Origin: Burkholderiales bacterium
GTDB lineage: Bacteria; Pseudomonadota; Gammaproteobacteria; Burkholderiales; Casimicrobiaceae
DNA length: 64,000 bases
Reading direction: 5' to 3'
NCBI GenBank assembly: GCA_020853025.1
Contig: JADYZP010000028.1
Location: forward strand, 124,001-188,000
Shown here piece by piece: positions 31,455 through 40,946 of this stretch; positions within the stretch are counted from its first letter, which is position 1; every line of letters starts with the position of its first letter. The translations under genes and the position numbers were made by a program. The notes beneath the pieces are model-generated. The model had not been told where the DNA came from. It searched no databases and saw only the letters and a program-made list of their open reading frames with translations.

Positions 31455-32321
31455 TCAGCTCTGCCCCCGATTTTCCGAAGCCGGTCGGGAAACGGGCGGC
31501 GGCCGCCCACCCAGCCGCTGCGTCAGCTCGACGGCCGTATGCGCGACCAGTGGTCCCAGCTGCTTGATCCGCTCGTCGGGCAGGCGCGACGAGGGTCCGG
31601 CGAGCGAAATGGCGCCGAGCACCTCGGCGTGCTCGTTGAAAATCGGCGCCGCCACGCAACGCGTCGCCAGCGCATGTTCCTCGTCATCGAAGGACCAGCC
31701 GCGCTGGCGGATCACCCGCACGCTCGCCCACATCGTCTCCGGCGACGTGATCGTGTTGGCGGTGATGCGCGGCAATCCCTTGACCTTGAGGATCGCGTCG
31801 ATCTGCTCGTCGGGCAGCGCCGCGAAAATCGCCTTGCCCACACCCGACGCGTGCAGCGGAACGCGGCTGCCCAGCTTGACGATCGTGCGCATCATTTCGC
31901 GGCACTGCACCTGGTCGATGAACACCGCCTCGGTGCCGTCGAGTATGCCGAGGTTGGCGGTCTCGCCCGACTGCTCCATCAATCGCCGCATGTACGGGTG
32001 GCTTTGCGCGACGAAGTCGCGATTGGCGAGAAAGCTGGTACCGACGGTGAACGCCTGCAGTCCGATGTACCAGCGGCCGAGTTCGCCACCCTGATAGACA
32101 TAGCCCATCTTTTCCAGCGTGGCGAGCAGTCGATGCGCGGTCGATGGCGCGAGCTGCACGCGATGTGCCAAATCGGTGAGCGTAAGTCCGCCTTCGGCGC
32201 GCGCGAGCGCTTCGAGCAGCGACAACCCGCGGCTCAGGCTTTGCACCTGAGCGGTGACCGCACCGGGCTTGCCGGGGGTGCGGCCGCGCCTGGGCGGGGG
32301 GGCGGGAGGTCGATTGGACAT
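31455..32321 (-). CDS. IclR family transcriptional regulator
   Basis: 288 residues. The N-terminal winged helix (about 25-85, LTDLAHRVQLAPSTAHRLLATL) is followed by an IclR effector domain (about 95-270, with GSRVPLHASGVGKAIFAALP). IclR regulators respond to small organic acids or aromatics. It is the last gene of the minus-strand unit that begins with phnR, 49 bp behind the flavoprotein gene, so it may control that flavoprotein or its substrate. The effector is unknown. Confidence 0.9.
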   Translation of the reverse strand: MSNRPPAPPPRRGRTPGKPGAVTAQVQSLSRGLSLLEALARAEGGLTLTDLAHRVQLAPSTAHRLLATLEKMGYVYQGGELGRWYIGLQAFTVGTSFLANRDFVAQSHPYMRRLMEQSGETANLGILDGTEAVFIDQVQCREMMRTIVKLGSRVPLHASGVGKAIFAALPDEQIDAILKVKGLPRITANTITSPETMWASVRVIRQRGWSFDDEEHALATRCVAAPIFNEHAEVLGAISLAGPSSRLPDERIKQLGPLVAHTAVELTQRLGGRPPPVSRPASENRGQS

Positions 32322-32370
32322 GAACTGCGGGCGAACGACGAGCGGGGAAGCGGTCCTGCAGAGCGCGACC

Positions 32371-40133: not shown

Positions 40134-40136
40134 CCG

Positions 40137-40946
40137 CTATCTCGGTGCGCGCGGGCGTGCAACCGCGGATACGGTGCCGGCATTGCGTTCTCGCGTTCGA
40201 TGCATTCGCTCGCGACTGCCCATTGCATGATCGAACAGCGCGCGGCCGGCGGCCGCGACCTCGCCCGCTGCGATCCGGTCCAGGATTTCATGATGTTCGC
40301 GGGCCGAGACGGGCAGCGTTCCGGCCGTCGCCAACGTCGTACGACGGTACAGGTGCAATTCGTTGACCAGCCGCCTATAGGTACGCAGCAGCTTGCCGTT
40401 GCCGGCCAGGGCGACCAGCGTTTCGTGAAACGCGAGATTGGCCCGATGGTAGGCATCGACGTCCGCGCGGGCAACCGCCCGATCCATCTCGTCCACCAGC
40501 GAACGCAGGCCGCGCAGGTCGGAAGTGGAGATCGACTGCGCCACGCGGCGGCCCGCGAATTCGTCGAGGACCGCGCGCAATTCATAGATTTCGTCGGCTT
40601 CCTCGACCACGATCTGGCGCACGAATACACCGCGGTTTTTTTCCAGTCGCACCAGCCCGGATTCCTCGAGGGCACGAAACGCCTCCCTCACCGGTCCGCG
40701 TGACACGCCGAGCAGGTCGGCGATCGATGCCTCGTTGAGCTTGGCTCCCGCCGGCAGGTCGCCGGTCAGAATCATGCGCTCGAGCTCGCGCTGCACCAGC
40801 GCCGGCAGGGAATTGCCCTGCAGCACCGCGATCGTGGCGCCGCCCTGACTCGGGATGGGATCACGCGACACCGGTGACAAGAGTGCCTGCGGTTGCCCGC
40901 GTGTGCGCAGGCCTGCCCCACCCTGACCACCGCCACTTTTCAACAT
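40137..40946 (-). CDS. phnR: FadR-type GntR regulator of phosphonate use (PhnR)
   Basis: A winged-helix domain (about 50-110, ASIADLLGVSRGPVREAFRAL) and an FCD effector domain (about 115-245). The call matches the phosphonate-utilisation regulator found next to phnA/phnY/phnW in Burkholderia. ATG 40946 gives 269 residues; this A is just where the promoter at 40953-40981 predicts the transcript to begin, so translation may be leaderless, or may start further in (GTG 40871). TTG 40991 lies upstream of the -10 and is unlikely. It heads the minus-strand unit and probably also controls divergent phnS. Confidence 0.88.
   Translation of the reverse strand: MLKSGGGQGGAGLRTRGQPQALLSPVSRDPIPSQGGATIAVLQGNSLPALVQRELERMILTGDLPAGAKLNEASIADLLGVSRGPVREAFRALEESGLVRLEKNRGVFVRQIVVEEADEIYELRAVLDEFAGRRVAQSISTSDLRGLRSLVDEMDRAVARADVDAYHRANLAFHETLVALAGNGKLLRTYRRLVNELHLYRRTTLATAGTLPVSAREHHEILDRIAAGEVAAAGRALFDHAMGSRERMHRTRERNAGTVSAVARPRAPR

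Follow-up and report, generated by a model that had tools for sequence, protein, structure and literature searches.

The locus examined here raises the question of what a two-part flavoprotein, two carriers, and a second regulator are doing in a gene block for phosphonate breakdown. The block lies in a 64,000-nucleotide stretch (the window, whose numbering is used throughout) of contig C28 (JADYZP010000028.1) of the 3.65-Mb draft genome of a Burkholderiales bacterium of the family Casimicrobiaceae (GCA_020853025.1). Seven minus-strand open reading frames (31455–40946) follow one another there with gaps of 3, 12, 13, 16, 9, and 49 bp; a preliminary description of the block had given the same coordinates, strand, and gaps, and all check out. 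Our answer, held with slightly better than even confidence, is that the flavoprotein would perform a folate-linked N-demethylation of methylated 2-aminoethylphosphonate (2-AEP), feeding the PhnW–PhnY–PhnA pathway, with export of inorganic phosphate (Pi).

The seven-gene block is one half of a divergent island (approximately 31.5–46.3 kb) that is predicted to combine 2-AEP uptake with phnWYA breakdown. The minus strand encodes the GntR/FCD-type regulator PhnR (40137–40946; TIGR03338, 292.5 bits vs. a cut-off of 271.5; FCD and GntR domains), phosphonoacetate hydrolase PhnA (38886–40133; TIGR02335, 601.9 vs. 407.55 bits), and phosphonoacetaldehyde dehydrogenase PhnY (37413–38873; TIGR03250, 833 vs. 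635.65 bits), followed by a Na/Pi-PhoU protein (35675–37399; TIGR00704, above cut-off), an EamA/DMT carrier (34813–35658; EamA domain), an 810-amino-acid flavoprotein, here DAO-GcvT (32371–34803; PF01266, PF16350, PF01571, and PF08669), and an IclR-family regulator (31455–32321). EamA and DAO-GcvT as listed start with GTG and TTG, respectively. On the plus strand are the 2-AEP ABC transporter binding protein PhnS2 (41164–42234; TIGR03261), the ATP-binding protein PhnT2 (42323–43390, start approximate; TIGR03265, scanned from 42200), and the permease PhnU2 (43410–45134; TIGR03262), all above cut-off, and 2-AEP:pyruvate transaminase PhnW (45189–46334; TIGR02326, 485.9 vs. 400.8 bits; NF010006, 559.1 vs. 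296 bits). PhnW, PhnY, and PhnA all exceed their equivalog cut-offs; the island shares these enzymes and PhnS2T2U2 with the known hydrolytic 2-AEP pathway, and differs from it in adding DAO-GcvT, a YjbB-type carrier, and EamA. In many relatives, PbfA or the oxygenase-family Phn-HD is encoded between phnY and EamA; the window has neither at this place. The four genes downstream of phnY had been described as non-standard members, which is half true: the best model for EamA is a phosphonate-associated NCBI family, phn_DUF6 (TIGR03340), under its cut-off (170.4 vs. 288.15 bits).

The gene order is not due to chance, since it is found again in relatives, and the block may be read as a single transcript. 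The region 31300–41300 has a single terminator-like site, which lies on the plus strand (shuffles averaging 5.0), and three promoter-like sites (shuffle mean 1.1, standard deviation 0.9); two of these are on the operon strand within the Na/Pi gene, and an internal promoter is therefore possible.

DAO-GcvT carries DAO, FAO_M, GCV_T, and GCV_T_C domains in the order typical of the dimethylglycine dehydrogenase (DMGDH)/oxidase (DMGO) family, and its closest solved relatives in a search of PDB sequences are DMGDH (6.9e-130) and DMGO (3.8e-93). A "related amine" as substrate, proposed in the preliminary description, would fit an enzyme of DMGDH type. The homology to DMGDH (4p9s and 5l46) and DMGO (1pj5) is full-length and extends to His/His/Tyr/Asp residues whose roles we presume: H49 aligns with what we take to be the covalent-FAD (flavin adenine dinucleotide) histidine, and H232 and Y258 with the presumed active-site His and Tyr of DMGO, all three being kept in every alignment row with a letter there. 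D536, which we take to be the folate-half Asp, is conserved in 70/70 rows of the subclade, and the same position is Asp in 1pj5 and Ala in 3gsi (both oxidase). Differences from DMGDH and DMGO, besides the phosphonate context, lie in the folate half: the loop at 634 is GGPG in the window and its group (GGAG in locus L213) vs. mostly GELG-type in relatives, and the group has Arg679 vs. mostly Tyr or Phe. The Glu of the GELG-type loop is common among relatives and is not known to define the DMGDH/DMGO family. The subgroup-specific residues N94, N358, G634, P635, and R679 come from a comparison of the 70-row subclade with 57 "outside" rows, the latter including 4 early rows that belong to the 74-row group described below. 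An AlphaFold2 model of DAO-GcvT, built from 8 sequences, was not usable (mean predicted local distance difference test score 48.6).

The connection between DAO-GcvT and phosphonate genes is conserved in a large group of relatives. Matches to DAO-GcvT were deduplicated by their middle 300 bases across both collections (148 to 136), and a locus was taken as phn-linked if a PhnA, PhnY, PhnW, PhnS2, or PhnU2 match over a set identity lay anywhere in the fetched stretch; matches with <4.5 kb upstream were left out of the fractions (9/24 at 70–100% identity, 20/56 at 60–70%, 7/20 at 50–60%, and 11/36 at 30–50%). The phn-linked fraction was 15/15, 29/36, 1/13, and 1/25 in these four classes, that is, 44/51 at ≥60% identity vs. 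2/38 below 60% (p 1.7e-15, kinship not removed). In a midpoint-rooted tree made by a quick method from 127 rows (the window and the 126 of 136 matches with frames of at least 700 amino acids), the group, defined as one side of a branch (SH-like approximate likelihood ratio test 100), comprises 74 rows, of which 51 are linked, 17 are on short contigs, and 6 are unlinked; 4 of the 53 rows outside it are linked. The 44 linked loci with room encode PhnA (40), PhnY (41), EamA (41), Na/Pi (24), Phn-HD (28), PbfA (8), and IclR (12), and in 46 of the 63 DAO-GcvT matches with ≥1.2 kb upstream, EamA precedes on the same strand by no more than 350 bp. Identities and gaps in several of these locus comparisons come from tblastn edges, so that gaps are approximate, and many loci are contigs of metagenome-assembled genomes (MAGs).

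Within the window's family (64 genomes, its own included), DAO-GcvT (≥65% identity) occurs in 34, PhnA in 37, and both in 29 (Fisher p 2.7e-6, kinship not removed). Five orthologues are without PhnA: the contig ends inside the operon in three genomes (G271, G298, and G270), and two (G269 and G252) hold fragments. Eight family genomes have PhnA without the orthologue, of which G251 and G274 carry other DAO-GcvT proteins. A class search, in which 20 of 35 matches besides the window were fetched and at most two candidates scored per genome, and a named-genome scan complete the comparison; among the best 80 of the 579 matches of the latter are Polaromonas sp. JS666, whose DAO-GcvT (L235) is 65% identical, as well as Polaromonas sp. 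OV174, Variovorax sp. 770b2, Rubrivivax pictus, and Limnohabitans sp. 2KL-17. The proposal that the extra genes are tied to phnA holds in part: Na/Pi-PhoU, EamA, and DAO-GcvT accompany it repeatedly, in the family and in other Burkholderiales; for IclR the proposal is not supported.

The association also extends beyond the order. DAO-GcvT (~56% identity) and PhnA are 4.1–9.3 kb apart in all 10 plasmid records common to the two sets compared (30 of 370 and 40 of 116 rows). One stretch of Sinorhizobium meliloti Ak57 holds, after xsc and pta, DAO-GcvT, a LysR gene, Na/Pi, PhnW, phnA, phnY, and a 2-AEP transporter, so that the linkage of both Na/Pi and DAO-GcvT, as first proposed for the window, recurs there; in Aminobacter and Shinella the phn cluster is present with longer gaps to DAO-GcvT. 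The rhizobial proteins, which lack the GGPG signature, branch separately, and the phn association therefore arose more than once or predates the group. Two records, L188 and L256, are titled as Bordetella parapertussis and Bifidobacterium breve MAGs; their loci fall among those of the window's family and of mycobacteria, and they are probably mistitled.

Shared control of these genes is suggested by a palindrome upstream of phnR. The candidate PhnR operator, AGATTGTCAACAATCT (40972–40987, no mismatches), is conserved in phnR–phnS2 regions, and the only perfect copy of GATTGTNNACAATC in the genome is at this position, with five more sites at one mismatch. The palindrome is immediately upstream of the ATG at 40946, which is therefore a likelier start for PhnR than the alternative TTG at 40991. 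In 39 phnR–phnS2 intergenic regions, one of them the window's, obtained from 42 loci, a count of gapped palindromes found ATTGT-N2-ACAAT in 38, GATTGT-N2-ACAATC in 28, and the full AGATTG...CAATCT in 22, with shuffles giving ≤3 regions for any 5-mer. A scan of 173 stretches totaling 2.77 Mb, the window among them, gave 67 core sites, 58 of them distinct; 57 of the 58 adjoin phn or extra genes, and the remaining one, in L047, is at the start of that locus's phnR match, while seven control palindromes gave 0, 0, 1, 0, 0, 0, and 1 sites. The window itself has one site at ≤3 mismatches and shuffles average 0.61, so that the weight of its palindrome rests on conservation. In rearranged loci the palindrome heads the unit: EamA–DAO-GcvT in L220, Na/Pi–EamA in L206 and L214, and, in L122, a DAO-GcvT–Rieske pair placed between phnR and phnS2 and flanked by two identical sites. 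This argues for shared control rather than mere packing, and that the extra genes keep the palindrome in such separate units supports the connection that had been proposed for them. No core site was found at the unlinked loci L194, L196, L205, L213, L219, L232, and L233. PhnR probably binds the AGATTGT-N2-ACAATCT palindrome, which provides a ready sequence marker for a putative PhnR regulon.

Under the reading that we prefer, PhnR would control an island for 2-AEP and N-methylated 2-AEPs, of which the seven-gene block is the catabolic arm. PhnS2T2U2, and perhaps also EamA, would import the phosphonate. DAO-GcvT would use covalently bound FAD to oxidize an N-methyl group of N-methyl- or N,N-dimethyl-2-AEP, while its GcvT half would transfer the one-carbon unit onto tetrahydrofolate, so that 2-AEP remains. 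This 2-AEP would be converted by PhnW to phosphonoacetaldehyde, by PhnY to phosphonoacetate, and by PhnA to acetate and Pi, with surplus Pi released by the YjbB-type carrier. DAO-GcvT fits an accessory logic resembling that of PbfA, which is described in passages of PMC12366243 as bringing hydroxylated AEP into the pathway, with N-methylated AEP in its place; passages of PMC10590968 describe N-methylated aminophosphonates as natural products. If confirmed, DAO-GcvT would be a new entry route into the phnWYA pathway, and a folate-linked demethylase in many Burkholderiales would tie phosphonate use to one-carbon metabolism and broaden the gene set for estimating phosphonate turnover. In the phosphonate catabolism literature, with subscription papers sparsely covered and hence no proof of novelty, we found no DAO-GcvT/DMGDH-type enzyme or Rieske–DAO pair.

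Several observations weigh against folate-linked demethylation at this locus. Gly634, the second Gly of GGPG, replaces a Glu found in 52 of the 57 rows outside the subclade, and folate use could therefore be changed. FolD (47296–48207) adjoins PhnW in relatives without DAO-GcvT too and may be housekeeping; within the group, PurU adjoins DAO-GcvT only in L226, with a weak 29% match in L195; and the window's genome has no close Rieske partner (best match 29% over part). Seven of the 36 matches at 60–70% identity are not beside core phn genes, one of them (L205) having EamA, Phn-HD, and Na/Pi 6 kb away; a whole-genome search found no PhnA in one of these seven genomes (L219). The other 6/7 encode PhnA above cut-off elsewhere, vs. 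21/250 genomes of the order, own included (p 5.1e-6; L213, which is among the seven, carries the title Rhodospirillaceae and is outside that order), which speaks for the link. Six family genomes, of the window's genus, keep phnA and show no DAO-GcvT match at 1e-60; DAO-GcvT therefore behaves as a removable cassette. In these, IclR is within ~125 bp after EamA in L116 and L121 and after Na/Pi in L118, ~1.7 kb separates IclR and EamA in L117 and L120, and the L119 contig ends earlier. Of 22 phnA loci sampled across the order from other genomes, 3 of them on contigs <11 kb, only 1 has DAO-GcvT, and Na/Pi (≥50% identity) and EamA are each present in 3; these three genes are an add-on of some clusters, not a fixture. 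The IclR–EamA gap where DAO-GcvT is missing is filled in L117 by a frame matching CysN/adenylyl-sulfate kinase models (3288–4826), and L120 has a frame in the same gap (3181–4818), equated by position only.

DAO-GcvT might instead cut the ethyl C–N bond, converting N-methyl-2-AEP to phosphonoacetaldehyde and methylamine with the GcvT half as a structural remnant, as characterized FAD enzymes of phn clusters do according to passages of PMC10590968; the altered GGPG signature would suit such a remnant. In those passages PbfC and PbfD yield phosphonoacetaldehyde and methylamine, formaldehyde having been tested for and not found, and the characterized breakdown of trimethyl-AEP yields trimethylglycine; the main text of PMC10590968 contains neither "GcvT" nor "tetrahydrofolate". 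PbfB/C/D (Zangelmi 2023) are, like DAO-GcvT, PF01266 flavoproteins recurrent in phn clusters with methylated AEP as a plausible substrate; the window enzyme differs in its two-part architecture, the Pbf enzymes being set apart by their description in the passages of that paper, from which they appear to be without a GcvT half. The folate-half Asp is kept throughout the subclade, and the HpnW model (TIGR03364) gives DAO-GcvT 53.5 bits vs. a cut-off of 285.1. The closest solved relatives, DMGDH and DMGO, take off N-methyl groups. A DMGDH-type protein that has retained its folate half would be expected to make the opposite cut to that of PbfC/PbfD, sending the methyl to folate and 2-AEP to PhnW, and we regard cleavage of the ethyl bond as unlikely.

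About as improbable, or slightly more so, is that DAO-GcvT is an ordinary dimethylglycine/sarcosine dehydrogenase that by chance lies near phn genes. The architecture is the same, and the genome encodes no second full-length DAO-GcvT; its four GCV_T matches are in frames of 382, 813, 329, and 596 amino acids, none of them presumably of sarcosine-oxidase-alpha size. Linkage, however, follows the subgroup rather than the fold (44/51 vs. 2/38), most of the unlinked genomes nonetheless hold PhnA, a GbcA-type Rieske protein for glycine betaine is absent from the genome beyond the 29% partial match, and the EamA–DAO-GcvT unit of L220 has its own upstream palindrome. An N-methylated sulfonate such as N-methyltaurine, with the enzyme serving taurine-type catabolism, is highly improbable as substrate. 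It would suit the xsc and pta genes that immediately precede the S. meliloti relative (56%) and an xsc-like gene for a thiamine pyrophosphate enzyme (L181, 391–2151) at the margin of a phn cluster whose DAO-GcvT is 43% identical; strong xsc-like matches are nevertheless confined to L181 among the 173 stretches (weak 27% matches in L051 and L222), and the above-cut-off xsc of the window's genome is on a different contig. A taurine reading of the window was set aside as weak on these grounds.

For the Na/Pi-PhoU protein, which is 49% identical to Escherichia coli YjbB over 534 amino acids and a full-length homolog with Na/Pi and PhoU parts, export is the likelier direction because of this homology and of Pi release on 2-AEP as nitrogen source: passages of PMC11389368 call YjbB a Pi exporter, and passages of PMC8316502 report extracellular accumulation of Pi during growth on 2-AEP as nitrogen source. 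The earlier suggestion that the block serves to "expel surplus Pi" fits this homology. Uptake of Pi, which the family name (sodium-dependent phosphate transport) would imply, is improbable given that the phn pathway produces Pi inside the cell and that YjbB is reported to promote export. Compared with E. coli YjbB, the window homolog sits in a phosphonate operon, and the Na/Pi genes of L206 and L214 are headed by the palindrome; the YjbB-type carrier is a testable gene for Pi release on 2-AEP as nitrogen source, for which the passages of PMC8316502 name no exporter. The position of EamA directly before DAO-GcvT suggests that it moves the substrate or product of that enzyme.

A longer, betaine-like route is possible, though we think it more doubtful than not: a GbcA-like Rieske oxygenase would convert trimethyl- to dimethyl-2-AEP, DAO-GcvT enzymes would pass the remaining methyls to tetrahydrofolate, and 2-AEP would enter PhnWYA. 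The window and most of the group would have only the DAO-GcvT step (di- and mono-methyl forms), and both steps would be present in L122, L124, and possibly Aminobacter sp. MSH1. Four family genomes have GbcA-like Rieske genes adjoining members of a separate branch of DAO-GcvT, and in two of these genomes the genes are within the phn cluster. GbcA, the glycine betaine Rieske monooxygenase, is the best model for the L122 protein (371.3 bits, under the cut-off of 670), which differs in lying in a phn cluster beside DAO-GcvT; no such protein is present in the window. If the route is real, N-methyl-AEP would have a mechanistically distinct solution alongside PbfB/C/D, and trimethyl-AEP would have a second one. 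The L122 (7924–11837) and L124 (8597–12261) regions each pair the GbcA-like oxygenase with a second, distinct DAO-GcvT (42–44% identity). On the Aminobacter sp. MSH1 plasmid (L277, 17729–26828), two DAO-GcvT genes accompany a PDR/VanB reductase and a Rieske alpha subunit 41% identical to that of L122, ~9 kb or more from phnA. Hints for the folate-linked mechanism preferred above come from these Rieske pairs and from PurU (formyltetrahydrofolate hydrolase): in Variovorax sp. 770b2 an above-cut-off PurU separates PhnW from DAO-GcvT, and in L172, a more remote relative that is unlinked, PurU and DAO-GcvT are 95 bp apart. PurU is sparse among relatives and was rejected as a regular neighbor.

The IclR regulator had been counted as part of the unit and is rejected as a functional member on its distribution. 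A match at ≥60% is found in 0/29 linked loci at 60–70% DAO-GcvT identity, the 12 linked loci with IclR all being at ≥70%; in relatives it is up to 7.4 kb away and stays beside nagZ where DAO-GcvT is missing. It has a 50% paralog elsewhere in the genome and is under the BhcR and IclR equivalog cut-offs (305.5 vs. 350 and 301.7 vs. 380 bits); the protein, BhcR/IclR-like in sequence, counts as no more than a family-level neighbor.

Downstream of PhnW, a NUDIX gene (DUF4743) and folD (46331–48207) often adjoin PhnW in the family, also without DAO-GcvT (L117 and L121). Beyond them, on the minus strand (48215–52374), are genes for an aldehyde dehydrogenase, an iron alcohol dehydrogenase, and a glutamine-synthetase-like ligase, none of which passes a specific model; a PhnR site for this trio was sought in the window at ≤3 mismatches and none was found. 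The set is beside phn genes or DAO-GcvT, whole or in part, in L038, L039, L125, L219, L239, L241, and L247, and its ligase in L049 and L220; the trio is perhaps an amino-alcohol or gamma-glutamyl route.

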